Shown: one piece after another, positions 33,611 to 47,023 of the stretch | Layout of the letters: each line of letters begins with the position of its first letter | Position numbering within the stretch: position 1 is the stretch's first letter | Origin: Pseudotabrizicola formosa | GTDB taxonomy: Bacteria > Pseudomonadota > Alphaproteobacteria > Rhodobacterales > Rhodobacteraceae | Assembly: GCF_002900965.1 (NCBI RefSeq) | Contig: NZ_PJOM01000004.1 | Coordinates: 1-64,000 of the forward strand | Direction: 5' to 3' | Length of the DNA: 64,000 nt | The notes under the pieces: generated by a model | What the model was told of the DNA's origin: nothing | The model's input: the letters and a program-made list of their open reading frames with translations, nothing else | Database searches by the model: none | Translations under genes and position numbers: made by a program

Positions 33611-33687
33611 TCACTTGCGATGGGAAAGCCCGACATGGCGGGCAATGGTGCTGACGGTGAACACCTGCCGCGGGCGGTTTGCACGGG

Positions 33688-33803
33688 AATCAAACCGGCA
33701 TTTCTGCAGCCGCTGTCGCAAGCCCCTGACAAACCGCCAAATTTCAATGAGCCTTCTGGTGATCCCGACAGGACTTGAACCTGTAACCTGCCCCTTAGGA
33801 GGG
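33688..33803. repeat. Left attachment-site repeat with displaced tRNA-Arg 3' half
   Basis: A 116-base stretch that aligns without gaps to 46878-46993, with roughly five of six bases identical. The last 27 bases (33777-33803, beginning GAACCTGTAACC) are exact and match the tRNA-Arg(CCT) gene from T arm to anticodon loop. The tRNA-like part outside this core has three changes, as expected for a displaced, non-functional 3' half. This is the end of the element beside the integrase gene. Confidence 0.85.
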
Positions 33804-33805
33804 AT

Positions 33806-34912
33806 TCATTCATTTTCCTGATCCTTCTTTGTTTTCTTATGCTTGAGCGGTCGAGGTTCGGTCGGTTGTACATAGTTTGTACGAAACCGCGCCCTGACAT
33901 CGGCCTCGTCCGTCTCGGCGTGGGCATAGATGCGCATGGGCAGATTGGGGTCTGACCAGCGCCCGGCCTTGGCCGCCGTGACCGGATCGACGCCTTGTCG
34001 CACTACCAGTTCGGTGAAAAACCCGTGCCGCCCGGCGGGGTGTGCCGACAGGTAAGGGATGCCCGCGCGCTTGCATATCGTCTTCCAGCGGTTGTTGTAG
34101 CCGGTCGGGCTGCCATAGCCAAAGACGCGTGGCGACAACAGTTGCCCCGTCTTTAGGTTCTTGGGCCGCTTCGGCTTCAACACCACCAGCTCGGCCATCA
34201 TCTGCGGCGAAACGGTGATCCAGCCCTCCGGGTGGCCTTTCTGCGCCTTGATGCACACCTCGCAGGTGGCAGGCCGCAGATCATCCGGTTCGATGGACAC
34301 CGCCTGATCGATCCGCGCCGCTGTCTCGAACATGAAACGCACCATGGCGGCGTTGTAGGGGTCGGCGGCGGCACAGAAGGCTTCGATCCAGTCGCGCGTC
34401 GCAGGGATGCGCTCGATCCGGCTGGGCTTGCGCCGCCGCTGGTCCTGCGCGATGCGCTCAAACTTGTCGTAACGCTTCACGCGCAGTAACGGCGTGCCCT
34501 TGTGCTCATGCGCGTTGTTGATGACTGCCCGCGCGGGCGTCACGATCTCGCGCCACCAGGTATCGGTGCAGGCGTTCGGCTTGAGCTTGCGACCGAGGCA
34601 TTTCAGCAGCGCGCCCGTTATCGCGCCCAGCGGCATATCCCCGATCTCGTCGAGGATCGGCAGAAGCTGCTTCGCCGTCTTGGCGGAGGGGTGATAGAAA
34701 TCGACTGCATCGGCAAAGCGCAGACTGTGCTCTTCCCCGATCAGGTACTTGCGGACCTGAAGCTGGGTTTCGTCGTTTATCCAGTCCCGCGCGCCAGCTT
34801 CAGTAGTCGCTCGCGTGCTTTGGCGGTATGGACCGGCGATCGGTCGGCCATTGTATTCGACCCAGCCCTTGACCCAGAAGACGGAGCCACGCTTGTAGAT
34901 TTCGAGCGGCAT
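33806..34912 (-). CDS. int: Tyrosine recombinase (integrase)
   Basis: A 368-residue site-specific recombinase that should insert and excise the element at tRNA-Arg. The catalytic residues are visible: Arg200 (FETAARIDQAVS), a Lys near 225 (IKAQKGH), the H-P-A-G-R-H-G variant of the H-x-x-R box (Arg295, His296), Trp319 (GRWSDPN) and the nucleophile Tyr329 (RIYAHAE). The N-terminal part carries the arm- and core-binding domains. Its stop lies two bases from the attachment core. The ATG at 34912 lies inside the 3' end of the excisionase-like gene. Confidence 0.93.
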   Translation of the reverse strand: MPLEIYKRGSVFWVKGWVEYNGRPIAGPYRQSTRATTEAGARDWINDETQLQVRKYLIGEEHSLRFADAVDFYHPSAKTAKQLLPILDEIGDMPLGAITGALLKCLGRKLKPNACTDTWWREIVTPARAVINNAHEHKGTPLLRVKRYDKFERIAQDQRRRKPSRIERIPATRDWIEAFCAAADPYNAAMVRFMFETAARIDQAVSIEPDDLRPATCEVCIKAQKGHPEGWITVSPQMMAELVVLKPKRPKNLKTGQLLSPRVFGYGSPTGYNNRWKTICKRAGIPYLSAHPAGRHGFFTELVVRQGVDPVTAAKAGRWSDPNLPMRIYAHAETDEADVRARFRTNYVQPTEPRPLKHKKTKKDQENE

Positions 34913-35145
34913 GCCTGTCCTTCCTCGAAGATGGTGTCAATTTGCGCGGGGGTGATCAGCATGGTCCGTCCCAGCCGGAAGAACGCGCCGGTGTCGTTGG
35001 CCTTTTCGCGTAGCGTCCGCTCAGAAATCTCGATCCCGTGGTCGGCCATGATCTCGACCCATTGGGCCGGGGTCTTGCCGATGGTGAGGATCTGGGAGCT
35101 TTCAATTATCTCAATCTCCGCCACTTGGATCGTCCTTTCTTGCAT
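34777..35145 (-). CDS. Excisionase-like small DNA-binding protein
   Basis: A 122-residue protein whose middle part (ISERTLREKANDTGAFFRLGRTMLITPAQIDTIFE, read in pieces) looks like an AlpA/Xis winged helix that bends DNA for excision. I start at the ATG at 35145; the frame is open to 35169. The last 45 residues overlap the integrase gene by 136 bases in another frame and are Ser/Arg-rich and probably unstructured. Such a long overlap is unusual and ties translation of the two genes together. It is divergent from the repressor gene. Confidence 0.65.
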   Translation of the reverse strand: MQERTIQVAEIEIIESSQILTIGKTPAQWVEIMADHGIEISERTLREKANDTGAFFRLGRTMLITPAQIDTIFEEGQACRSKSTSVAPSSGSRAGSNTMADRSPVHTAKARERLLKLARGTG

Positions 35146-35187
35146 GTGTCCACGACTACGCCTACGCATAGAATCGCTTGTTCAGCA

Positions 35188-35242
35188 CCATCTGACGTGT
35201 TCAGATGGGATCAAACGTATATTGTCGTCATTTTGTGCGACA
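35188..35242. promoter_or_regulatory. Lysogeny-type control region with two operators
   Basis: Between the divergent excisionase and repressor genes are two dyads. One is the perfect CCATCTGA-N5-TCAGATGG (35188-35208); the other is TGTCG-N10-CGACA (35223-35242), 39 bases before the repressor ATG. A TATATT (35218-35223) lies between them as a -10 candidate. The XRE repressor is the likely binder. Confidence 0.6.
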
Positions 35243-35281
35243 TTCGCCCAAATGGTAATGCACGTCAATCGGAAAACGCAC

Positions 35282-35704
35282 ATGACGCGAGAGCCATCAG
35301 ATCTGTTCGCCGAGATGGGCCCGCGCCTTGCGATCACTCGCAACGACATTGGCCTGTCGCAAGCGGCCATGGCGGAAGCGCTGGGCGTGTCCCCTCGGGC
35401 CTATCACAGCTACGAAAAAGGCAAGCGCGGTATACCAGTCGAGGCCTTGGTCGCGATGATCGAACGGTTCGACCTAGACGTGCGCTGGTTGTTGATCGGA
35501 GCAAAATCGGTACGGGCAAACCATGATTTTGAGGCGCTGAAGAACATCGAAAACTCACTGGACAGGCATCTGATGGCGGAAGGCATCAAGATCAAAAGCG
35601 AGAAGCGGGGGGCGATCATCGCCCGCTGGTATCAATCGCATATCGAAGGGCGCGAGGTCGTCGACGACGATGTGCACACTTGGATCGAACTGGTAAGGGA
35701 CTAG
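35282..35704 (+). CDS. XRE-family repressor of the element
   Basis: A 140-residue protein with an N-terminal lambda-Cro-type HTH (ITRNDIGLSQAAMAEALGVSPRAYHSYEKGKRGIP in segments, roughly residues 15-50) and a C-terminal helical part that may dimerise. I choose the ATG at 35282 with CGGAAA upstream; ATGs at 35252 and 35258 are in frame. Facing away from the excision genes with operators between, it fits the role of maintenance repressor. Confidence 0.82.
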   Translation: MTREPSDLFAEMGPRLAITRNDIGLSQAAMAEALGVSPRAYHSYEKGKRGIPVEALVAMIERFDLDVRWLLIGAKSVRANHDFEALKNIENSLDRHLMAEGIKIKSEKRGAIIARWYQSHIEGREVVDDDVHTWIELVRD

Positions 35705-35708
35705 ACTG

Positions 35709-36005
35709 TTGGAAAGACCGAGCAAAAAGTGGCAGAGCGTGCGCAGGGCAACTTTGGAGCGAGCCCGCAGAGCAGCGATACAACCGCTTGAGCACCTACA
35801 TTTAATCTACTTCGGCGTCTGCATCTGCTACCTTACTGGCTTCGTGCGCTTTCAGTTCTTCGACCCCGCGGCAGGTTTCACTTGGATCACTGGGACGCAA
35901 CTCCTGATCGTTGCGTTCGCGGGTGCGCTTATGCCGATCCTCACCGGATCGGTGCTCACTCTGCATTTCGCCAGTCGAAAACTGCAACGTCTGGCGACCG
36001 AATGA
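35709..36005 (+). CDS. Small two-helix membrane protein
   Basis: A 98-residue protein starting at a TTG four bases after the repressor stop, with AAGGGA eight bases upstream. A basic N-terminus (about 25 residues) is followed by two hydrophobic segments (near residues 31-48 and 62-82). I know no family for it. The tight coupling to the repressor gene suggests it is real. It precedes the HigA-type gene by 27 bases and could be a small effector or a superinfection-exclusion type protein; nothing in the sequence proves either. Confidence 0.55.
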   Translation: MERPSKKWQSVRRATLERARRAAIQPLEHLHLIYFGVCICYLTGFVRFQFFDPAAGFTWITGTQLLIVAFAGALMPILTGSVLTLHFASRKLQRLATE

Positions 36006-36032
36006 CAGGTAGGAGCTTATGAGGAGGCGAAA

Positions 36033-36368
36033 ATGAAGCGCGACCCCAACAGCTGTCCCACACACCCGGGGGAACTGCTCCGCAAGGATGTGATCCCTGC
36101 GACGGGGGAATCCAAGGCAGCGGTCGCACGGTTACTCGGCATCTCGCGTCAGCACCTGCATAGCGTTCTGGCCGAGCGAAAGCGGGTAAGTCCAGAGGTC
36201 GCTGTGCGCCTTGCCAAGCTTTTCGGAAATGAGCCCCTGTTCTGGATCAGGATGCAGGGTGTCTATGACGCATGGCATGCTTGCCAAGACGTGGATGTTT
36301 CGGCGGTGCCGACGCTAATTCCTTCCGAGCGCGGCGTAGCAAGTCGCCGGTCGGCGTCTTCGCGGTGA
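36033..36368 (+). CDS. higA: HigA/VapI-type HTH protein without a HigB
   Basis: A 111-residue protein with a standard HigA antitoxin HTH: HPGELLRKDVIP, ARLLGISRQHLHSVLAERKRVSPEVAVRLAKLFG and FWIRMQGVYDAWHA (segments). GAGGAGG precedes the ATG at 36033. HigB-type toxins normally lie directly upstream; here that place is taken by the membrane protein, and no RelE-like protein is nearby. Five bases separate it from the next gene, so it probably serves as transcriptional regulator of the defence-like operon 36374-38942. The Ser/Arg-rich last 15 residues are unusual for the family. Confidence 0.82.
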   Translation: MKRDPNSCPTHPGELLRKDVIPATGESKAAVARLLGISRQHLHSVLAERKRVSPEVAVRLAKLFGNEPLFWIRMQGVYDAWHACQDVDVSAVPTLIPSERGVASRRSASSR

Positions 36369-36373
36369 CCCCC

Positions 36374-37222
36374 ATGCTCCAGTTCGACGGCCGTTGGAGA
36401 TTTGACAGTCCAGGTCCGATAGAAACCGGCGTCGACAACGCTTTCCGTGACCTCATTAATCGGATTGCTGGACAAGCTCCGCGTAAATCCATCCTCGAGC
36501 ATTTCAAGTCACGGTTTGCCTCTGCGGCCAACATCCAATACTGGCCGAGCAGCAACGAGCGGTTCGCCGCCGAGGATCTCACGACCGCCATGTCCGCAGC
36601 AGCGACGAACGCGCCTCTATTCATCGAAGCGTTCTGGCTCGGCTGTGAGGAACTCCGGCTCCGTCATCCCGAAATGGTGTTGCCCGACGCGGGTCGGATC
36701 AACCGCATCCTCACCGACACAAACGCCGGCTATCAGCTCGATCCGCCCCTGCTGGTTGCCACCCGTGTGCATATCCCCATCGCGGTTCCGACCCCGCCCC
36801 CATCACTGGATGTGCAGGCCCGGTCGCTCATCGAGCAGGCGCTGCAAGCCTCAGAACACGCCCTGGCCGAGGGGAACGGCCGACAGGCCGTCCAGGAAGT
36901 CTTGTGGCTACTGGAGACCATCTCCACTGCATTTCGCAGTCCTGAGGTGTTCGACGGCACCATTCAGGGACGCTACTTCAACAAAATAGTCGGTGAGTTG
37001 CGCCTGCGCGGTCGCGGGCATCAGGAACAGATCCTGCAATGGATGATGACATTGCATGGATACCTGTCCTCCCCCACCGGCGGCGGGGTGCGCCATGGCG
37101 TCGATCTCAAGGAAGGCCTCGCTCTGGGAATCGAAGAGGCGCGTCTCTACTGCAATCTCATCCGTAGCTACCTGACATTTCTCATGGCGGAGCATGAGCG
37201 CCTGACAAGGCGCGTCGCATGA
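36374..37222 (+). CDS. Abortive-infection-like protein with Abi C-terminus-like domain
   Basis: A 282-residue soluble protein. Its C-terminal third (GGGVRHGVDLKEGLALGIEEARLYCNLIRSYLTFLMAEH in pieces) resembles the Abi C-terminal domain (PF14355), a helical RN/HG-type module of abortive-infection proteins related to HEPN folds. The middle part (INRILTDTNAGYQLD) resembles the N-terminal halves of such proteins. I use the ATG at 36374; the frame is open upstream inside higA. It overlaps the next gene by ATGA. Function in phage defence is inferred from this similarity, the neighbours and the mobile context; no nuclease motif is certain. Confidence 0.65.
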   Translation: MLQFDGRWRFDSPGPIETGVDNAFRDLINRIAGQAPRKSILEHFKSRFASAANIQYWPSSNERFAAEDLTTAMSAAATNAPLFIEAFWLGCEELRLRHPEMVLPDAGRINRILTDTNAGYQLDPPLLVATRVHIPIAVPTPPPSLDVQARSLIEQALQASEHALAEGNGRQAVQEVLWLLETISTAFRSPEVFDGTIQGRYFNKIVGELRLRGRGHQEQILQWMMTLHGYLSSPTGGGVRHGVDLKEGLALGIEEARLYCNLIRSYLTFLMAEHERLTRRVA

Positions 37223-38106
37223 CCGTCTATATGACGAAGACGTGGGGATTTGGATCGCCATCCGGGCCACTTCAATTTAGCCAGCGCGGGTGGCGGGACC
37301 GAGCCCGCGGCCTCCTCCGGCCAGGCGATCTTGTAGTGATCGTCGGCACGATGGGCGATGAAACCCATTCCGAAGAGCGCGGCATGATCCTTGGCCTCAT
37401 GGAGCCGACCACGACGATCGTCAGCTCACTCGACTACGACCTCGCCCGTGGCCCACGCGATTTCGATGAGGCTGGCAACTACCGCTGGCCGTTCGGGCTC
37501 GAACTCTTGCGTGCCTGGCGCTTCCTCGAAACAAGGACCGCCTTGTCGGCGATCTCGCCACGGCGCTTCAGCATGGATTCCGCGCAGGGAATCGTACCGC
37601 TCCTCGCAGATGAGGCCGAGGCGATCCTGCTCTTGCCCAGAGAACCGGTCGCGCTGCTCCGGCCCGCTCGAACCGAGGCACGGGTCGCGGGTCTAGAGGC
37701 AGCTCGCCGGCGAGGCGCACCGCCACCAACGACCAAGCGCACCGGCATCATGCATATGCGGAGGGCACCAGCCTTCACCTACGCCATGATGATCGAAGGC
37801 GCTTCACCCCCTTCGTTCAAGATTGGCTGGGCCTTTGACTGGAGGCGGCGGGAGCGCAATTTCAACCAGTCAGCCATGCCCGAGCTCGGTGGCGTTCGAT
37901 ACCGCACGATCCTCCACGAACTGTGGGACACGGCCATAGATGCCTTTCGCATGGAGCAGGCGATCCTCCACCATTTCGATGCTCTCCGGCATGCGCGCAA
38001 TCAAGAGGTGGTATCCGCGGTCTCGGCGGACACGATCCAGAAGTCGTGGATCGATTACCTTTCGAACTACAGGAAGCGGAGCACACGGGGAGGAAAAGGC
38101 ACATGA
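37219..38106 (+). CDS. Two-domain protein: EVE/PUA-like N-terminus and GIY-YIG-like (T5orf172) C-terminus
   Basis: A 295-residue protein. Residues 1-100 (GLLRPGDLVVIVGTMGDE, SEERGMILGLMEPTT) look like an EVE/PUA-type beta fold that reads modified bases. Residues 180-270 (FTYAMMIEG, SFKIGWAFDWRRRERNFN, DAFRMEQAILHHF) resemble the T5orf172/Mug113 branch of GIY-YIG nucleases, with KIG, the following Arg residues and a late Glu in expected places. Translation is coupled on both sides through ATGA overlaps. A nuclease guided by DNA modification would suit a defence operon; this is a hypothesis from weak similarity. Confidence 0.55.
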   Translation: MTVYMTKTWGFGSPSGPLQFSQRGWRDRARGLLRPGDLVVIVGTMGDETHSEERGMILGLMEPTTTIVSSLDYDLARGPRDFDEAGNYRWPFGLELLRAWRFLETRTALSAISPRRFSMDSAQGIVPLLADEAEAILLLPREPVALLRPARTEARVAGLEAARRRGAPPPTTKRTGIMHMRRAPAFTYAMMIEGASPPSFKIGWAFDWRRRERNFNQSAMPELGGVRYRTILHELWDTAIDAFRMEQAILHHFDALRHARNQEVVSAVSADTIQKSWIDYLSNYRKRSTRGGKGT

Positions 38107-38942
38107 AGAAGCCGTCCGCGATGGTCAGCAAGAGCACCAGGTTTCCCTTCCAGGTTGCCGTATCCTGTTGGATTGACCTGCTCGGCTATGGCGAGATGAT
38201 CTCCGCCTCCGGGTTCAATCCACTGCACGCCGAAGCGCGCGATGCCCTCGCTCGCATCAGGACGTTTCATCGCATCGTCGCCGACCACAGCGCGAGATAC
38301 TTTCCGACATTGGTGATGAATGATGGGGCGGTCGCCTATCGTGATCTCTCCCTGCGAGCGCGTTCACCTACTCACGATTTTCTCGTGCGGGCGTGGAAGA
38401 TGTTCGAGGCGGTCCGGATCGAGGACATGAAGAGTGGCCATCCAGGACCGCGGATGGTCTTGGCCTGCGGGTTTCGCATGCTGGGACGGCGTGCCGGCCT
38501 GGACGCGTCTCGCGACCACTTCAAATCAATCGTCGATCGGTTGCAGAGGGGCGATATCGGCGCCGAGCAAGCGGTACGCGAGGCAGCATCGATGCGGCCG
38601 CGCTTTGATATCGTCCCGCAACTGCAAGCGAACTTCGCCTTCACAAAAGCCTACATCGCCGAGCAGACCGGGACGAAGGGCAAACTTCCCGGTCCTGCAT
38701 TCTACGTGGACATGGCGATATTCGGCGGCGACCGTCCGCAATGGATTGATCTGGGCCCTGACATTGACTGGGCACACCCCAAGTTGAACTTGCATGCGGT
38801 TTTCGCTGAGGTCCGTGGCATGCAGGATGGGCGACATCCGAGCGGCGGGCCGACCGATATTCGCGATGGCCTTGCCGTTGCGCAGACGCTTGCCAACGAC
38901 CCAGATGTCCTTATGGCACTACGCGCCGCGGAAAAATCGTAG
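38103..38942 (+). CDS. Unknown protein with class III cyclase-fold-like motifs
   Basis: A 279-residue protein that I cannot place in a named family. Three segments occur in the order seen in class III nucleotide cyclases: SCWIDLLGYGEMI near residue 20 (like F-x-D-I-x-G-F), FPTLVMNDGAVAYRD near 65 (like the second metal Asp region) and RMVLACGFRMLGRRAG near 120 (like R-x-G-I-x-x-G). The residues around the second Asp differ from active cyclases. The C-terminal half (FAFTKAYIAEQTG, GPAFYVDMAIFGG) is unassigned. It is the last gene of the operon, coupled by ATGA. A second-messenger role is speculative. Confidence 0.5.
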   Translation: MKKPSAMVSKSTRFPFQVAVSCWIDLLGYGEMISASGFNPLHAEARDALARIRTFHRIVADHSARYFPTLVMNDGAVAYRDLSLRARSPTHDFLVRAWKMFEAVRIEDMKSGHPGPRMVLACGFRMLGRRAGLDASRDHFKSIVDRLQRGDIGAEQAVREAASMRPRFDIVPQLQANFAFTKAYIAEQTGTKGKLPGPAFYVDMAIFGGDRPQWIDLGPDIDWAHPKLNLHAVFAEVRGMQDGRHPSGGPTDIRDGLAVAQTLANDPDVLMALRAAEKS

Positions 38943-38978
38943 CCATCGCCCGGGAACGGTCCGCTTCCCATCGACGGC

Positions 38979-41900
38979 TTAGTCCGGGCATGCACCCTTT
39001 CCACCGGTCTGCTTCTTTGAACGCTTCTGACTGCGTCGGACCAAGGCGGCGGTCATCTCTGCCGGCCGCGATACATCCAACACAATGACCTCCAATTTGC
39101 CTTTCAGGGGTATCGGAATATCGTCAAGGAGCATCGTCTCCAGCCCCTTAGCGCTTGAAGGGGCTTCCCGGCCATCGCTCCGGGCGGGGATCGAAAACTC
39201 GGTCCCGAACCAGAAGACCAAATAAATTCCGTAGCCATCGGCCCCCACGTCCGATGCGTAGCCATTGAGCTGACTGAGGGGTGCCGTCCAAAGCTCCCTA
39301 TTGTAGTGCCGCTTTGCTTCGATCGGCAGGTTCTTGCCGGCGTGGCTGAGTAGCAGAACGTCGGCTCGCTTGTTCTCCCCGCGCCGTGCTTCAGGGAAAC
39401 TGCCGACAATCCCGTATCTCTCCAGACGAACCCGCATTAGTTCGAGCAGACGGTCCCGATCCTCGTTTTCGATCTGTGGTGTCGTTGCCGCTCCGTCCTT
39501 GTCGGTGTTCCAGAACCGCTTCCATGGGGTTTCGCTGCCTGTTCGCAACGTGCTCCTGTACCGATCGATCTCCTCAAGAACCACTGCTGTGAGATCTGCC
39601 GGACTTGCAGGGGCTCCCCCAGAAAGCGCCACGACGAGGTCACCCACCGGCGGCGCCGCATAGAGATCATCCCGCTTCATCCTGGCATGTTCGGCGGCCG
39701 CGTGGGCGAGTTGCGGCTTCCAACTCGGATGTACCTCTGATGAGAGCGTTCTTAGAATCTCGCCTGCGTCGGCACTTTTCGAAGCGCTCAGACGACGGAT
39801 GGCTGCCCTGATGATCCCGCTGACGGTGTTGGAGTGCAGCCAGTCATCGTCGTCGGCCTCGTGGGCTTTCCCAAGAACTGCGATTCGGATGCGATCCAGC
39901 ACATTGGGCTGCGGAGATAGTTCAAAGAGGGCAGTCGCCAGATCGCCGTTGGGCCGCAACAACGCGCCTCGGACCTGCTCATCGGGAACTTCGGCAGAAA
40001 AAGTAGTCGGATCGAGAGCCAGCGCAACAAAGCTCCAGATCTCGCGCTGCTCATCACCTAGATCGGTTCGCTTTAGTGCCTCGTCGGCAAAGCCCGCCAA
40101 ATCGTCGTCAGCAAGAACAGATGCAGCAGCGACCAAAGCCTGCCGCAATGCGGGCATCGGCAGGTGGGGCCGATGGTTCAGCAGTTCATGAAGGATGGCG
40201 GCGATGAACCCATGCTCTTCGGCGCTCACCAAGTGATGAAGGCCATCGAGATCGTCGTCTCCAGCGTCAAGGGCAGCATTCCAGTACCGCAACATCTGGC
40301 TGACGCCCTGCTCGCGATCCTGCGCGAGACGTTGCACCGCCCAAGTGGCAAGCCAGGGTCCGTCGTCGCCCGCAAAATAGCTCTGACGCATTCCAACCAG
40401 CGCGCAGACCAGTGGGGCCGCTGCAAGCTCGGCTTCCCGACCATGCAAGAGCCCCTGATGTATTCCAGCGGCTACAACATATTCCTGAGCGTAGGCGCCG
40501 TTGGTTGCCTCCGCCCGTCCGAGACTCTCCGCATCGACCTTGATGTCGGTGTGTATCGCGAACTGGACAAACCCTTCTGCAATGGCTGCGGCAATCTCCT
40601 CATTGGTATAGGTCGTGACTTTGGCGAGCGGCTCCTCCTTCTTTGATATTCTCGCGTTGCGGTAATGGTCGGCGGCCCACTTCAGCGCGCCGAACTCGCT
40701 CGCGACGCCGCTCGCGATCGCGGCGAGCTTCGGTGTCAACTCAGCGATGTTGTCTTTCCGTGAGACTTCTGTCTTTGCGTCCTGCTGAGCCTGCCTTTGC
40801 GCCTGCTGCTTTTTCCACTTGGCGTTCGGATCGGACAGCAGCGACTTTATGAATCCAACGTGGCCACCTTCCTCTTTGAGAATGACGACCATCTTTTCGC
40901 GCCACGTCGACCAATGCGCCTCACCGCGCGCCGTGTACGCGGCAATCTGAAAGAGCCGTTTGCGCCGTGGTCCCTTCGCCTCGTCCCGGGCCAACGCAAT
41001 CAGCGCCTCCACCAAGGACTCCGACGGAAGGCGGCGCATGGTCGAAATGTATTGGTTCACAACAACCCAAGGCCCATCTGTGGGTTCGCCGGATTTCGCC
41101 ATGGCGAGAAAAAAGTCCAGCTCCCGCGGCTGAGGTTCGGCGTCCATCCACTTCTGTATCACCTCGACCACGCCGCTATCGAGCATGTCCCAGACATGCT
41201 CGCGGGCATTGTTTATCCAAGTCCACAAGCGCTCGGCGTCAACATCGGGACGACGCTCAATTGTGGAGACCAGCGCCTGATCGATGAAGAAGCGAACTTG
41301 CGATTTCTGTCGGCGCCCGCCAGTCGACCCGTGCAAAATCGGTAGTTCGAAGAGGTCTTCCGGGGTAGACCGACGCAGGGCAAGAGCCAGCGCATTCAAA
41401 GCCCCGCGGTCTTTCACCTCATCATCATCATCCGATGGTGCGGGCAGTGCGCTGAAGTCAGCCAGGAGTTTTCGGATCTCGGATGCCGCTATCGCGTCGG
41501 CCGGCATCCCCGCCAGCAGTCTCGCCCTCAGTACCACCTGGCCGGCGTCGACGGGCTGACGCTCCAGCTCCGATATCAGGGCTCGCCGTATTGCCGTTCG
41601 GTCCCCTCCGGCTCTGACGGTCACTTCCGAGGCGCGTTCCCGCATCCACAACGGTCGGCCGGCTTCGAGAACGATCTCACGAAGTTTGCTCTGTATTCCC
41701 TGCACCGGCGGTCCATCTGCAAGAGCCTGCAGGACGGTAAGTTGGAGATGCCTACGGACGTCCGTGTCCAAGATCGTCGCGAAATCTCCGGCAAGATCCT
41801 CGCCGGCAAGCCCGCCCAGTACGGTCGCGTCGTCCTGCGCCGACAGGAAATAGGGATCGTCCCGGTCAAGATTGAAAAGGATCGCTTTTCGCCCGGAGGT

Positions 41901-43049
41901 GTCGAAAGCGGCAGCATCGCCATAGGCGAGCACGGTCGCGGCATCGCGATCGATGAGACGGAGTGCGCCCTGGGTGTCTCCCAGCTTATGAAGATGCGCC
42001 GCGAACCAGGCATAAAGTCCTCGAAGCTCGCTGGGTGCCTGGCGATCCGCGCCGGTGATGAACGCGAGGGCACGACGCAGGGGGAAAGCGTGATTGTTTC
42101 CCGTCCCCGTCACGATCCTTGCCAGGAAACGAGCAGCGAGAAACTCCGCCACTGTGCGATGGCAGACCTCGAAGGCATGACCCTCGCCGCGAAACAACGC
42201 CGTGTCCAAGGCGGCAGCGACCTGTGCAGGCTCGATGTCGAGCCCGTTGGTGCTCAGATACTCATTCGCGCTATCCGAATGAGGCGGCATGGCATTGGAG
42301 CGCCAGACCGCCCTGGCACCGGAAGCAAGGACGTAAAAGAATAGTCTGGAAGCAGTTTCGACAATGGCCTCGACGCTAGGTCTGGGATCGGTCACGCGTT
42401 CGGGATCGTACTCGTGGGCCAGTGCCCAGATGGCCTTTTCGAACAACTCGAAGCGCGTTCGAGGCCATGTTCCATCGGCCACCACGACCGAGTGAAGTAG
42501 CCGGAGACTCAGGGGGCTTTCGAGAAAGGCCGCTGCGCCGCGCGTCCGCGCCTCGATCACGAATGCTCGCGGATCAGCAGCGCCAAGCGCTGTGAGGACG
42601 GCCTGGGCCTCAGTTTCGTCCAAGGGCAGAAGGCGCGCGACGACGATGGAGCCGTTGTTGGCCGCCCGTCGCATGGCCCCAAGATCTGCGGCATCACGCC
42701 AGTCCTCAGCCCGACAGGTCAGGCGCCAGCGATGGCGTTTGCTCGCTGACAACGCGCTGGCAAGTTGCAGGAGCTTGTCTTTGCCGTTCTCGCCCGTCCG
42801 ATATTCGTCTAAGGCATCGAGATATACCGTATCGGCGGCCGGCAGCGCCGCGCCACTCATCGCTTCACGACAGGTGAAGACCTCGCCCCCTTCGGCCGCG
42901 GCCTCATAGCGCAACGCCGTCGACTTCCCGAGGCCGGGCTCGCCAAGCAGAACGACGAACGGTTCGTCGCGCAGCGAGCTCAGTTGGCGCTCGCTCGCTT
43001 CTGCCTCGCTGTGAACAAGGACGCGTCGGTCCAAGGATGCAATCTTCAT
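38979..43049 (-). CDS. STAND-type NTPase with C-terminal PD-(D/E)XK-like domain
   Basis: A 1356-residue protein. Near the N-terminus is a P-loop NTPase: Walker A GEPGLGKST (residues 36-44), Walker B VYLDALDE (to about 82), and a sensor-like RWRLTCRAEDW. A long helical-repeat region with no known domain fills about 350-1180. Near the C-terminus, RADVLLLSHAGKNLPIEAKRH places Asp1230, Glu1244 and Lys1246 in the order of PD-(D/E)XK nucleases, with a Gln at about 1260. I use the ATG at 43049; a TTG at 43082 is in frame. The design (NTPase, sensor repeats, nuclease) recalls Avs-type phage sensors, which usually carry the effector at the N-terminus. It is convergent with the preceding operon. Confidence 0.75.
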   Translation of the reverse strand: MKIASLDRRVLVHSEAEASERQLSSLRDEPFVVLLGEPGLGKSTALRYEAAAEGGEVFTCREAMSGAALPAADTVYLDALDEYRTGENGKDKLLQLASALSASKRHRWRLTCRAEDWRDAADLGAMRRAANNGSIVVARLLPLDETEAQAVLTALGAADPRAFVIEARTRGAAAFLESPLSLRLLHSVVVADGTWPRTRFELFEKAIWALAHEYDPERVTDPRPSVEAIVETASRLFFYVLASGARAVWRSNAMPPHSDSANEYLSTNGLDIEPAQVAAALDTALFRGEGHAFEVCHRTVAEFLAARFLARIVTGTGNNHAFPLRRALAFITGADRQAPSELRGLYAWFAAHLHKLGDTQGALRLIDRDAATVLAYGDAAAFDTSGRKAILFNLDRDDPYFLSAQDDATVLGGLAGEDLAGDFATILDTDVRRHLQLTVLQALADGPPVQGIQSKLREIVLEAGRPLWMRERASEVTVRAGGDRTAIRRALISELERQPVDAGQVVLRARLLAGMPADAIAASEIRKLLADFSALPAPSDDDDEVKDRGALNALALALRRSTPEDLFELPILHGSTGGRRQKSQVRFFIDQALVSTIERRPDVDAERLWTWINNAREHVWDMLDSGVVEVIQKWMDAEPQPRELDFFLAMAKSGEPTDGPWVVVNQYISTMRRLPSESLVEALIALARDEAKGPRRKRLFQIAAYTARGEAHWSTWREKMVVILKEEGGHVGFIKSLLSDPNAKWKKQQAQRQAQQDAKTEVSRKDNIAELTPKLAAIASGVASEFGALKWAADHYRNARISKKEEPLAKVTTYTNEEIAAAIAEGFVQFAIHTDIKVDAESLGRAEATNGAYAQEYVVAAGIHQGLLHGREAELAAAPLVCALVGMRQSYFAGDDGPWLATWAVQRLAQDREQGVSQMLRYWNAALDAGDDDLDGLHHLVSAEEHGFIAAILHELLNHRPHLPMPALRQALVAAASVLADDDLAGFADEALKRTDLGDEQREIWSFVALALDPTTFSAEVPDEQVRGALLRPNGDLATALFELSPQPNVLDRIRIAVLGKAHEADDDDWLHSNTVSGIIRAAIRRLSASKSADAGEILRTLSSEVHPSWKPQLAHAAAEHARMKRDDLYAAPPVGDLVVALSGGAPASPADLTAVVLEEIDRYRSTLRTGSETPWKRFWNTDKDGAATTPQIENEDRDRLLELMRVRLERYGIVGSFPEARRGENKRADVLLLSHAGKNLPIEAKRHYNRELWTAPLSQLNGYASDVGADGYGIYLVFWFGTEFSIPARSDGREAPSSAKGLETMLLDDIPIPLKGKLEVIVLDVSRPAEMTAALVRRSQKRSKKQTGGKGACPD

Positions 43050-43513
43050 GAGCAAAAATACTTTCGCTTCTGTCAGCGACAAAGAACAAAATGCGAGTCC
43101 TTGCCCGCTACACGCTCAGCAGACCTTGAAACACGCCTTCGTAGGGCAGCTTTTCGTCCCCAATTTCCGAAAAGCCGACAGTCTTGGGCAAGCTCCTACC
43201 CAAATCTGATCACGGTGAAAATCAGATTCTGATCGACGGAAACCCTCCGTATGCTGCGCATCGTCGGCGCGCTTAGCCTATTTCATTCCTTGATCTTTGT
43301 GCCAAGGCTTAGCGCACCTCCGGCGAGCTACAGGAAGCCCCAAACGGGGATGCTTTTGCAAGGTTGAAGTCCACCAGGTTCGCGATGGATAAGGCAGCAG
43401 ATATAATCACTGCTCGCTCTTGCGTAGCGCGGCTAATAGCCCTTGAGCTATGATGATTGATTATCGTCTATGGACTATATTGACAGAATATCGCCAAAAG
43501 ACTATCAGAGCCT
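43050..43513. promoter_or_regulatory. Intergenic region with the hipBA promoter
   Basis: No gene is supported in these 464 bases. At the right end, TTGACA (43480-43485), a 17-base spacer and TATCAG (43503-43508) form a good sigma-70-type promoter. It ends only five bases before the hipB ATG, so the transcript may have almost no leader. GACTAT repeats at 43473-43478 and 43499-43504 flank the -35 box and may be HipB sites. The left end holds the promoter of the STAND gene. Confidence 0.5.
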
Positions 43514-43762
43514 ATGCTGAACGCGCCTGCATATCCCATCAGAAGCCTTCGGCAAGCCGGGGCCGTCCTGCGCGCCAGGCGTGCTTCGCGCAGGATCAGC
43601 CAGAAGCAATTGGGGCAGATGACGGGAACGGCACAATCTACCATCTCGGACATCGAGAATGGCGTGGTGTCGGTCAGCCTCGATGTCTATCTGCGCCTCC
43701 TCGAAGCTCTGGATGCGGAGTTGTCAGCGACCGATCGTCTGGTCGACCGGGACGTGACCTGA
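43514..43762 (+). CDS. hipB: HipB-type antitoxin/HTH regulator
   Basis: An 82-residue XRE-type protein: AVLRARRASRRISQKQLGQMTGTAQSTISDIENG (segments) is the HTH, and VSLDVYLRLLEALDAEL the following helix. It should neutralise HipA and repress its own operon. It ends one base before the hipA ATG. Confidence 0.88.
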   Translation: MLNAPAYPIRSLRQAGAVLRARRASRRISQKQLGQMTGTAQSTISDIENGVVSVSLDVYLRLLEALDAELSATDRLVDRDVT

Positions 43763-43763
43763 G

Positions 43764-45089
43764 ATGGCGCGTATTGCCCGCGCTGCTCGCGGCACACGCC
43801 AGAGCCAGACCGCAGTCTGGTACGAGAGATCCAGGGTAGGCACGCTGGCGCGTGCGACCGATGGAGCGATCAGCTTCACCTATGATGCTGCATGGCTCGT
43901 GTCCGAGACAGCCTTTCCTGTGGCCAGCGCCTTGCCGCTGTTGAAGGCCAGATGGCAAGGCGATCCCGTGGTGGCGGCCTTCGACAACCTTCTGCCCGAC
44001 GCGGAGGGTGAGCTGCGCGAAAAGATCGCCGCACGAGTTGGTGCACAGGGCAAGGATGTATTCTCGCTGCTATCGGTGTTGGGGCGCGACTGCGTCGGTG
44101 CGCTCCAGTTTCTGCCGATGGATGAGGCCCCTGCAGAACAGGACATGCAGTATCGGCTCATCTCGGAAGAAGAGATGGTTGCCGATCTGAGAAATCTCGC
44201 GGCTGCCCCGCTCGCGCAAGGCGACGATGAGGATTTCAGGATTTCCATCGCAGGCGCCCAGGAAAAGACTGCCTATCTGCATGTGGATGGTCAGTGGGCA
44301 AAGCCGCGCGGCATCACGCCCACCAGTCATATCTTTAAGACACCCATGGGCATCCTGCCCGGCCCGGACCAGATCGACTTAAGCGACAGCGTCGAAAACG
44401 AACTGTTCTGCATGACCCTTGCACGGGAAATCGGGTTGCCCGCCGCGCATGTCGAGAAGATCGTCCTTCCCGGGCAAGTAGTACTGTCGGTCGAACGATT
44501 CGATCGGGTTTGGCAGGGTGAGACGCTAAAACGTTTGCCACAGGAGGATATTTGCCAGTCGCTGGGGTACCCCTCAGCTATGAAGTACCAGAAGGTGGGC
44601 GGCCCGGGCATCGCGCAAATCATGGAGCTTTTGCGGGAATCCGATACACCGATCGAGGATCGGGAGACCTTCTTTCAGGCGCAGATTTTCTACTTCCTGA
44701 TCGGTGCGTCGGATGGCCATGCCAAGAATTTTAGTTTGCGTCTGGGACGCCAGGGCCGCTTCAGCCTCGCGCCCCTGTATGACATCCTGAGCGTCGCTCC
44801 AGTCGTTCGCGCCGGGCGCTTGCAGCGCAAGCGTTACCGGCTCGCCATGTCGGTCGATGGCCATTACGGCGTTGACGAGATCGTGCCCCGACACTTCGAG
44901 TCCGAAGGGCGCGCCGCAGGTCTTCCCAAGGGCCGCGCCTTGGAGCTGCTGCAGGACGTGACGGACCAGCTGGGTCCGGCGCTGGAACGCGCGATGGTGG
45001 CAGTCGGCACCCAGGTGCCTCAAAGCGTCAGCGACCCGATAGCAGATGACGCGATGCAGCGGGCTGCGCAGGTCAAGGAACTGCTTTAG
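43764..45089 (+). CDS. hipA: HipA-family serine/threonine kinase toxin
   Basis: A 441-residue HipA-type kinase; E. coli HipA inactivates glutamyl-tRNA synthetase by phosphorylation and causes dormancy. The HipA N-terminal domain is followed by the kinase core: ISIAGAQEKTAY (nucleotide loop), VENELFCMTLAREIGLP, VERFDRV, the catalytic-loop Asp in GASDGHAKNFSL and the metal Asp in PLYDILS. All key residues seem intact. It lies on the tRNA-Arg element, where it may act in element maintenance or phage defence. Its stop overlaps the convergent MobC-like gene by four bases. Confidence 0.92.
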   Translation: MARIARAARGTRQSQTAVWYERSRVGTLARATDGAISFTYDAAWLVSETAFPVASALPLLKARWQGDPVVAAFDNLLPDAEGELREKIAARVGAQGKDVFSLLSVLGRDCVGALQFLPMDEAPAEQDMQYRLISEEEMVADLRNLAAAPLAQGDDEDFRISIAGAQEKTAYLHVDGQWAKPRGITPTSHIFKTPMGILPGPDQIDLSDSVENELFCMTLAREIGLPAAHVEKIVLPGQVVLSVERFDRVWQGETLKRLPQEDICQSLGYPSAMKYQKVGGPGIAQIMELLRESDTPIEDRETFFQAQIFYFLIGASDGHAKNFSLRLGRQGRFSLAPLYDILSVAPVVRAGRLQRKRYRLAMSVDGHYGVDEIVPRHFESEGRAAGLPKGRALELLQDVTDQLGPALERAMVAVGTQVPQSVSDPIADDAMQRAAQVKELL

Positions 45090-45661
45090 GGATCTGGCCC
45101 CTTGGTGGCCAACCCTGCTAGCGCCTTGTCAACCTCTCGCGTCATCGCAACTTGTCTTGCCTCCCAGAGGGTGCGGAAGTTTTCGACGAAGTCGACAAAG
45201 AACCCCGCGAAGGTGCGGATAGTGGTCATGTCTTCGACGGTGAAAGGGATCGGGCGGCCGCGCAGTTTGGCCTCGTTGAGTTTGCGGGCCACTTGGTTGA
45301 TTGCGGCGCCGTGTGTCTTAATCTCTGCGCCCCAGTCTTGAATCTGGTCGATCAGGCTCTGATCGGTCGGACGCAGCAGGACATCCGCAGCACCCATCAG
45401 GCAACGCAGTGCGGCGGGGTGGTCAGTGATGTCCCGCTTCACCATCCCGTTCTTGAAGCCCGCCAGTTCGCGTCTACTGACGCGTAGGCTGATCGTTCGG
45501 GTGCGCGACGGGCACGCTCCTTGGGCCTTGGTCAACGTGTTGTAGACCGTCCGGCGCGAGACCCCGAATTGGCGGGCAAGCGCCTTGACGGGCGTGCCTT
45601 CGGCGCGGGTTTCGATGATCTGGCGGCGTTCGTCGTCGGTCAGTTTGCGGTGGTGGCGCAT
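45086..45661 (-). CDS. MobC-like mobilisation protein with resolvase-type HTH N-terminus
   Basis: A 191-residue protein. Residues 1-45 (KLTDDERRQIIETRAEGTPVKALARQFGVSRRTVYNTL in pieces) form a Hin/resolvase-type HTH. The rest resembles MobC relaxosome proteins: ISLRVSRRELAGFK and especially GAAINQVARKLNEAK. MobC helps a relaxase open DNA at oriT. No relaxase is present, so mobilisation would need one in trans, or the protein has another job in replication or partition. The fusion of HTH and MobC-like parts is notable. Confidence 0.7.
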   Translation of the reverse strand: MRHHRKLTDDERRQIIETRAEGTPVKALARQFGVSRRTVYNTLTKAQGACPSRTRTISLRVSRRELAGFKNGMVKRDITDHPAALRCLMGAADVLLRPTDQSLIDQIQDWGAEIKTHGAAINQVARKLNEAKLRGRPIPFTVEDMTTIRTFAGFFVDFVENFRTLWEARQVAMTREVDKALAGLATKGPDP

Positions 45662-45948
45662 GTGAAGTTTACGTTCCTATTTCTTGCCAACTTCATCCAA
45701 GCTTCCCGCCTCCCAGCGTCAGCGGAGGCGGATCAGAGGCTTGGAGTCCGTTTCAGTGGTTCTGCTTGGTGGGGCGGGATGCGGGGCGCGATGCGGGAAA
45801 CGTGAAGCGTGTGGCGGCGAGCACGGAACGCGGCGCAGAGGACGCAATGCGGTGGGCGAGGTGCAGAAGACACGGGGCGCGATGCACGGTCCAGAAAGCC
45901 CAATGCACGGGACGCAGTGCGCGGTGCGCCCTGCCAAGAACGCGCCTC
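45662..45948. repeat. Repeat-rich non-coding region between MobC-like and replication genes
   Basis: No gene supported. Two near-identical 12-mers stand in tandem, GGGGCGGGATGC (45771-45782) and GGGGCGCGATGC (45783-45794); a third, identical to the second, is at 45874-45885. Further ATGC/GCACGG fragments follow up to 45930. Lying between mobilisation and replication genes, it is a candidate oriT or part of a replication origin. Confidence 0.5.
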
Positions 45949-46812
45949 TCATGCCGCCAGCCCCGCCGCGCGCAGCTGGCCATCGGTCACCAACCCCGCC
46001 GTCACCAGCGCCGCCAACTGCGGGGCGGTGATGTGCTTGCACATCGGGCTGCGGTCGCGGACCCAAGTGGCCAGCCGGGCGTGGTGGTCGGCCGCGAGGG
46101 CCGTCTGCGCCTGCCGCTCCTCGGCCAACGCATCGAGGAAGCGCTGCCACCGCCGGTCGGCGAACCAGTTATCCGCGAAACAGACTTTTGACCTCGTGAA
46201 GCCCACACTCTCGGTGGCGTAGGCCTGCACAGCGCGCAGCAGGTCGTCGGGGTCAACACCCTCCTTCACGGCCTCCCTGATCCGGGCAAGGCACGCAGCT
46301 TTGCCGCGTTGCCGGTCCTTCGGGTAGGCGGCCAAGATCTTCTCGAACCTTTCATCCTCCACTGCCGCCGCCTTCGCGCGCTCGCGCGTAGGTGGTTTAT
46401 GGATGGTTTTAGGGTGGTTTGGGGTCCACAGTGGACCCCGTACCCCGTCCACGGTGGACCCCGTACCGGGTTCAGGCTGGACGGGGTCCACCGTGGACCC
46501 CGTCCCGTCATCGGGTTCGGCCATCGATTCCAATTGCATCACGCGTGCCAGAACGATGCGATAGATCACTGTGAAACCATTCTTGCAGGGGCGGCGTCCG
46601 GTTTCGATCAAGATGCCCTCGCGCAGGAAATCGCTGATCGTCCGCTTCACGGTGCTTTCGCCCAGCTCGGTGTGGCGCTGGACCGTGCCCTTTGAGCACC
46701 AGATGCCAGAGCCATCGTCGCTCGCCTTGTCGGCCAGGAACATGATGATCTGTTTGCGGGCGGCACTGCCGAACCTGCGGTCGGCACATTCGTTCGCAAC
46801 GCGCCAGCTCAT
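45949..46812 (-). CDS. Helix-turn-helix replication protein, phage-O-like
   Basis: A 287-residue protein. The N-terminal winged helix (CSKGTVQRHTELGESTVKRTISDFLREGILIETG in segments, residues 38-75) is like those of phage and plasmid replication initiators. A linker of GTGSTVD repeats (residues about 100-125) follows, then a helical C-terminal domain (FEKILAAYPKDRQRGKAACLARIREA) typical of O-like proteins that load a helicase. GAGG precedes the ATG at 46812. The linker is encoded by palindromic repeats (46421-46503), the arrangement seen in lambda O, whose gene contains the origin. Confidence 0.72.
   Translation of the reverse strand: MSWRVANECADRRFGSAARKQIIMFLADKASDDGSGIWCSKGTVQRHTELGESTVKRTISDFLREGILIETGRRPCKNGFTVIYRIVLARVMQLESMAEPDDGTGSTVDPVQPEPGTGSTVDGVRGPLWTPNHPKTIHKPPTRERAKAAAVEDERFEKILAAYPKDRQRGKAACLARIREAVKEGVDPDDLLRAVQAYATESVGFTRSKVCFADNWFADRRWQRFLDALAEERQAQTALAADHHARLATWVRDRSPMCKHITAPQLAALVTAGLVTDGQLRAAGLAA
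46421..46503. repeat. Three palindromic iterons inside the replication gene
   Basis: GGGGTCCAC-N-GTGGACCCC occurs at 46421-46439 and 46483-46501, the latter extended to 11-bp arms (46481-46503). A shorter copy, GTCCAC-N-GTGGAC, is at 46447-46459. They encode the GTGSTVD linker. T/G-rich DNA (46390-46420) lies next to the first copy. This is a candidate origin bound by the encoded protein. Confidence 0.65.
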
Positions 46813-46877
46813 TGCAGGGCCTCAACTTGTACAGGTTTTGTACAGAAATCCCGACTGCCGCCCCAGATTTCCCGCGA

Positions 46878-46993
46878 AATCAAACGGGCGTTTCCGCAGC
46901 CGCCTTCGCAAGCCCCTGACAAAACTCTATGTTTTATTGGGTTTTTTGGTGACCCCGACAGGATTCGAACCTGTAACCTGCCCCTTAGGAGGG
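46878..46993. repeat. Right attachment-site repeat overlapping tRNA-Arg
   Basis: The partner of 33688-33803, the same length and gap-free. It contains the 3' half of the intact tRNA and about 70 bases beyond it, including the shared block from GCAGCCGC to CCCCTGACAAA. The exact core is 46967-46993. The similarity beyond the tRNA is more than simple integration requires. Confidence 0.85.
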
Positions 46994-47023
46994 GGCTGCT
47001 CTATCCAGTTGAGCCACGGGACC
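46947..47023 (-). tRNA. tRNA-Arg (anticodon CCT)
   Basis: A 77-base gene with encoded CCA. The acceptor strands GGTCCCG / CGGGGTC, D stem GCTC / GAGC, anticodon stem GCCCC / GGGGC around CTCCTAA (anticodon CCT) and T stem ACAGG / CCTGT with TTCGAAT are all present. Its 3' half was supplied by the integrated element. Confidence 0.95.

Follow-up and report, generated by a model that had tools for sequence, protein, structure and literature searches.

A candidate replication origin inside the O-like initiator gene of a tRNA-integrated mobile element of Rhodobacterales

The window (the whole stretch of 64,000 nucleotides of Pseudotabrizicola formosa analysed here) contains a 13.2-kb integrative element (33757-46993) inserted in a tRNA-Arg(CCT) gene (46947..47023, minus strand), its integration target. 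Its borders are marked by an integrase and by the duplicated tRNA 3' end: a partial, 47-bp copy of this end (33757..33803, plus strand; 3 mismatches to 46947-46993) lies at the other border, beside a tyrosine integrase gene (33806..34912, minus strand; PF00589, 4.4e-8). The outer chromosome at one border (33665-33756) also resembles the inner flank by the tRNA (46855-46946; together with the core, 139 bp at 79%), which may have been left by a tandem or an older integration event. Among 11 genomes of the same genus that were searched, the partial tRNA copy was found in three (G588, G590 and G591), and precisely these have the initiator gene described below. The three sister elements, of ∼8, 13 and 21 kb, have differing cargo and conserved ends (integrase and initiator); they share the integrase (88–96% identical), a 191-aa HTH protein, hipA (a fragment in G588) and the initiator. 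tRNA-Arg(CCT) is an integration hotspot in the genus, and it was present at 13 of the 60 homologue loci scanned; in 12 of the 13 it stops exactly 155 bp short of the gene.

Directly downstream of the initiator gene lies the gene of the 191-aa protein (45086..45661, minus strand; HTH_23/HTH_7), whose HTH is of the resolvase type. This protein forms a cluster of 27 loci and is conserved beside the class A initiators defined below; its C-terminal half, considered as a candidate MobC, was rejected for want of a Pfam match. A hipA toxin-family gene occupies 43515-45089, with a small XRE-type reading frame seen by eye upstream of it, and the 1367-aa protein encoded at 38979-43082 matches nSTAND3/AAA only weakly, below the cut-off, and is a possible NTPase cargo, perhaps for defence; PADLOC gave no match on four cargo proteins, this one included. 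Across 154 homologue loci, the neighbours comprise hipA-like (67), relaxase-type (32) and NikA/MobC-type genes (28), the families having been verified on one locus, L101 (relaxase PF03432 and NikA/MobC). This gene content gives many relatives the appearance of integrative mobilizable elements; no relaxase was seen in the window's own element.

The initiator gene itself (45949..46812, minus strand) encodes a 287-aa protein with profile matches to phrog_270 and phrog_391. In the PHROG profile search, phrog_270 ('replication initiation protein') matched residues 1–242, covering both halves of the protein (8.5e-22), and phrog_391 ('replication initiation O-like') matched at 5e-9, while no Pfam or NCBIfam family scored over its cut-off. 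These profiles identify the gene as an O-like, phage-type initiator gene, placed at one end of the integrative element. An AlphaFold2 model predicts an N-terminal winged-helix DNA-binding domain (DBD; residues 1–92, 46537..46812, minus strand) made of helices 17–29, 41–48 and 52–65 and strands 68–76 and 79–86, residues 52–65 being the predicted recognition helix (46618-46659, minus strand). A linker with pLDDT below 50 at residues 99–142 and 144–147, predicted to be disordered, leads to a helical C-terminal part; the C-terminal domain (residues 143–287, 45952..46386, minus strand) is recognized by phrog_270, phrog_26426 and phrog_35955 and is common to homologues with differing DNA-binding domains. 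A PDB fold search with the winged-helix model returned generic winged helices only (E of 0.01 and above) and a PDB sequence search with the initiator protein gave no relevant match. Viral structure models matched O-like proteins with good E-values and low TM-scores, the latter being expected because two domains sit on a floppy linker.

The linker-coding DNA holds four iterons, all on the minus strand. Iteron 1 is a 27-bp perfect palindrome, GGACGGGGTCCACCGTGGACCCCGTCC (46479..46505, cds offsets 307–333); iteron 2 is the degenerate GTCCAGCCTGAAC (46470..46482, offsets 330–342), whose counterpart in the class C relatives (see below) is GTCCAGACTGGAC, in some relatives the clearest palindrome of the array; iteron 3 is GTCCACGGTGGAC, with the palindromic core GTCCACCGTGGAC (46447..46459, offsets 353–365); and iteron 4 is a 19-bp perfect palindrome, GGGGTCCACAGTGGACCCC (46421..46439, offsets 373–391). 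Set against a ∼19-bp (imperfect) inverted repeat, iterons 1 and 4 are perfect, iteron 3 is perfect in its core and iteron 2 is degenerate. Their centres lie at cds offsets 320, 336, 359 and 382, that is at spacings of 16, 23 and 23, and fall in codon phases 2, 0, 2 and 1, hence in all three phases. The original prediction had placed three palindromes in the replication gene, between the winged helix and the C-terminal domain; the position agrees with the AlphaFold2 model and all three are present within 45949..46812 (46421-46439, 46447-46459 and 46479-46505), the array growing to four with the degenerate copy at 46470-46482. It had also read the palindromes as coding for the peptide GTGSTVD, which applies to iterons 1 and 3 only (counted in gene order), since 46421-46439 is read in another frame and yields RGPLWTP.

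Directly 3' of the iterons follow three 11-bp repeats, AAACCACCCTA, AAACCATCCAT and AAACCACCTAC, in an AAACCA/AACC run (46388..46420, minus strand). They too occupy three codon phases, and since both the iterons and the 11-bp repeats are spread over three phases, the encoded peptide cannot be their cause. This block is a local A+T maximum (56% vs 23–30% over the iterons) and its coding strand is devoid of G, which makes it a candidate unwinding element. The four iterons and the AACC block belong together as one array. The 3.7-Mb genome contains just two mismatch-free copies of the 15-mer GGTCCACNGTGGACC, at 46423-46437 and 46485-46499, both within this gene; allowing one mismatch adds the third palindrome and two isolated single sites in the whole genome. 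The DNA of the array had no match in phages and a single match in plasmids, a Paracoccus record.

We showed by several means that the array is maintained as DNA. Firstly, in synonymous-codon shuffles within the gene, which hold the protein and the codon usage constant, the summed score of the three best palindromes was reached by 0/1000 shuffles of the window gene, and its repeat score by 0/300 gene-wide shuffles. The palindrome-only test covered 16 genes; class C was weaker there (20–36/1000 shuffles) and the remote or divergent homologues L119, L121, L127 and L154 were not significant. Secondly, we compared synonymous change between homologues, drawn from family genomes (matches in 71 of 295), three viral contigs, one plasmid and named-genome contigs, for which 135 of 165 pattern hits were confirmed and 80 kept. 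The codon alignment comprised 107 of the 154 loci (full-length, no N, identical coding sequences removed; 123 before that removal). Skipping pairs with a synonymous divergence below 0.3, synonymous differences fell to 0.15–0.4 of expectation at codons 101–150 (46363..46512, minus strand), the proposed origin, against 0.9–1.5 over most of the rest, and this stretch coincides exactly with the iterons plus the AACC block. The same dip recurred in each group taken on its own, namely class A (24 genes), class B (51, L126 being omitted), class C (19) and the unrelated DBD types 1 (16) and 2 (12), the threshold here being 0.15. The check set beforehand, that homologues keep the palindromes at the DNA level, was thereby borne out, synonymous change collapsing at the array alone.

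Some copies of the gene are damaged: the initiator of the sister element in G590 (L279) has an in-frame stop (TAA), and those of L042, L052 and some other loci are truncated or interrupted; decayed copies are therefore not rare. Two IMG/VR 'viral' contigs (L031 and L032) carry class B and C initiators and may be integrative elements mistaken for viruses.

A search with the C-terminal domain alone gave matches in 110 of 390 genomes from the order. Among its matches without a locus, 60 were fetched, a part of all such matches, and the requirement of an ATG start and a length of 225 aa or more led to a set of 181 distinct genes with five DBD types: type 0 (143), 1 (18), 2 (17), 3 (2) and 4 (1). 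Types 0, 1 and 2 each have their own palindrome at the same place in the gene. Type 1 iterons are TTTGCCC..GGGCAAA repeats and type 2 iterons GTCTCA..TGAGAC, remote type 2 members having AACTCCA..TGGAGTT, GACTCCACT..AGTGGAG or GTGTCCG..CGGACA repeats; in both types the repeats occupy the interdomain region, with AACC/AACCT repeats after them. In 177/181 genes (141/143, 17/18, 17/17, 2/2 and 0/1 for types 0 to 4), the linker surpassed 95% or more of the synonymous shuffles in 7-mer self-similarity, while a control window in the C-terminal domain was significant in 2/181. A linker that kept its peptide and lost the DNA symmetry is thus not the rule, four of the 181 (L120, L228, L148 and L240) being without significant repeats. 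AACC copies are spaced by 11 bp in 271 of 277 type 0 intervals, by 12–13 bp in type 2 and by 12 bp in type 1 (15/16). Taken alone, they went beyond codon shuffles in 86/143 type 0 genes, 0/18 of type 1 and 2/17 of type 2; the evidence from AACC therefore rests on type 0. Among the relatives, the DNA-binding domain and its matching iterons have been swapped together, at least three different DBDs being involved. More distant relatives of the DBD are encoded on two Sulfitobacter pontiacus plasmids (L255 and L256), beside the partition gene repB (and repA in L256), and these proteins may be the replicases of the two plasmids; a replicon role of these HTH relatives was rejected on the array test, with no significant array (16/300 and 39/300 shuffles).

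Within the 107 aligned genes, the half-sites fall into class A (24 genes; GTGGACCCC), class B (52; GTGAACCCC/GTGACCCCC) and class C (19; GTGGCCCCC), and 12 genes fit none. Classes A and C differ in both arms of the palindrome and, along with these, in two amino acids (S to A and D to A). This joint change of both arms despite altered amino acids, and the different palindromes at the same place next to unrelated DBDs, again show upkeep at the DNA level. In seven class A genes (L069, L073, L106, L107, L108, L111 and L113) the C-terminal half is class-B-like (79–93% identity to L012, 50–52% to the window protein); the array is therefore not bound to the remainder of the gene. At L071 and ∼23 other loci, a reading frame, GGEYRNRTGVHGFAIQ, lies ∼300 bp upstream and resembles a tRNA 3' end read on the opposite strand, which we take to be that of tRNA-Cys; this suggests another integration site, used by class B elements.

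The iteron bases change together with the DNA-binding domain. Genes in which half-site base 4 is mostly G have G at residue 51, and those in which it is mostly A have S there (54 + 52 rows, 0/106 exceptions, L118 being excluded for a gap at this residue); R at residue 60 coincides exactly with a base 5 that is mostly C (22 vs 85 rows, 0/107 exceptions). Both residues belong to or adjoin the predicted recognition helix, and they are the only informative error-free positions among the 237 scanned outside the linker; position 151 has zero errors too, trivially, with one differing row among 68. These base traits were defined after inspection of the data and exclude iteron 2. On the tree of the C-terminal part, the traits change four times for residue 51 and twice for residue 60, two and two of these changes falling on well-supported branches, and all are concordant; with so few independent changes a phylogenetic sign test of the residue/base link cannot reach 0.05. 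On the whole we lean towards a modular rule for phage-type initiators of mobile elements, in which DBD and origin would form one gene-internal cassette exchanged as a unit in front of a common C-terminal domain. Initiator and origin would then be hard to separate by recombination, and new specificities would come from swapping the domain or from one or two changes in the recognition helix, residue 51 reading base 4 and residue 60 reading base 5.

We propose that the array is very probably the replication origin of the integrative element, located inside the initiator gene as in phage lambda, from which we infer the steps of binding, opening, helicase recruitment and replication. Excision at the tRNA-Arg site would precede replication. 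The N-terminal winged helix would then bind, probably as dimers, the four ∼19-bp palindromic iterons in its own linker-coding DNA, and the resulting complex would open the adjacent AACC-repeat/A-rich block. The C-terminal domain would recruit the replicative helicase, directly or via host factors, and theta replication of the excised circle would keep the element from being lost while excised.

The main rival, which we consider improbable, is an intragenic operator through which the protein represses its own gene, as a roadblock or by looping, the origin being elsewhere. The residue/base covariation points to binding by the protein's own DBD, which alone is no proof of an origin, and iteron binding of the lambda type could serve both roles. 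However, no iteron copies with up to one mismatch were found near the initiator promoter or elsewhere in the element, and an operator leaves unexplained both the conserved AACC block, always on the same side, and the lambda-like size and spacing of the array. It is less probable still that the palindromes act as mRNA stem-loops controlling translation or termination. The linker RNA does fold better than shuffles (z −4.7; relatives −2.4 to −4.7), but the known DNA origin of lambda folds better still (z −6.6), and since it folds best of all, we rejected RNA folding as a discriminator. The asymmetric half-sites of class B moreover break a pair in dozens of species, covariation with a recognition helix is not expected of stem-loops, and a simple promoter/terminator scan found nothing, including no terminator-like site. 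Least credible of all is that these are mere repeats of a disordered linker, produced by peptide-repeat expansion or gene conversion or kept for a function of the protein: the low pLDDT of the linker and the two repeats coding for the same GTGSTVD fit this reading, but it is largely refuted already by the constraint on synonymous sites in five separate groups, by copies read in different frames and by the loss of the signal in peptide-preserving codon shuffles.

If the array is the origin, the integrative elements common in Rhodobacterales (the initiator is present in 71/295 family genomes) are suggested to self-replicate after excision, a stage that the accessible text of a 2017 review of integrative mobilizable elements (IMEs) terms unexplored (PMC5704250). 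The gene with its array is a candidate replicon for Rhodobacterales, and the 181 natural initiator/origin pairs, with recognition residues and bases changing together, make the reading code of O-like proteins testable without a structure. Origins inside O genes are already known; in the literature covered, which included few subscription journals, we found no description of this initiator family, of the joint swap of DBD and iterons or of the residue/base code.

The closest functional parallel is lambda O. According to the accessible part of PMC7466680, the lambdoid origin lies midway along gene O and is made up of iterons plus an AT-rich tract, the minimal binding site of lambda is a 19-bp imperfect inverted repeat, and O acts as a dimer. 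In lambda (NC_001416) the four annotated iterons lie at cds 349–433, spaced by 20, 24 and 23, and are followed by an A+T peak; used as a positive control, lambda O gave a repeat score that peaked at the annotated origin (0/300 shuffles), the same signal as in the window gene, and the likeness to lambda O put forward originally is supported on this comparative evidence. Both genes have four ∼18–19-bp (imperfect) palindromes between the DNA-binding and C-terminal parts, nearly equal spacings (20, 24 and 23 in lambda, 16, 23 and 23 in the window) and an A-rich tract just 3' of the array (A+T of 76% in lambda, a modest 56% in the window). They differ in iteron sequence, and the window has 11-bp AACC repeats instead of the A-tract of lambda. 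A direct profile comparison between the initiator and lambda O revealed no similarity; the two share PHROG families 391, 678 and 345, in part through different regions of each protein. Lambda is a phage with an adjacent P gene, whereas the window carries an integrative element in which no virion genes were noticed and in which no P-like helicase-loader gene adjoins the initiator, the next gene being that of the 191-aa HTH protein; in relatives, the adjoining genes are relaxase/MobC or hipA. Because a direct sequence match to lambda O and an adjoining P-like gene are both missing, we file the gene as one that would work like lambda O.

O-like initiators of six phages extend the comparison: those of mEp460, Vibrio D67, 236O40-1 and Acinetobacter LZ35, AP22 and MD-2021a have 24–29% protein identity to the window protein and an array at the same place in the gene, each with a different iteron sequence. 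The repeat score was reached by 0/300 shuffles in mEp460, D67, 236O40-1 and MD-2021a, and by 5/300 and 8/300 in AP22 and LZ35. The three Acinetobacter phages have a gene for a DnaB-type helicase downstream of the initiator, whereas the window's element has none. In Rhodobacterales, the plasmid replicases RepQ, RepY and RepW belong to replication modules of mobile DNA that were tested as replicons in Phaeobacter inhibens (PMC9025767); the accessible text of that paper does not contain the word iteron. Among IMEs, the 2017 review, in its accessible text, lists Rep_3 initiators and phage-type replisome organizers (PMC5704250). Salmonella genomic island 1 (SGI1) and other IMEs with replication genes are likewise integrative, with replication after excision suspected or shown (same source); SGI1 has a Rep_3 initiator (PMC5704250), while the window's element has an O-like initiator with its proposed origin inside the gene.
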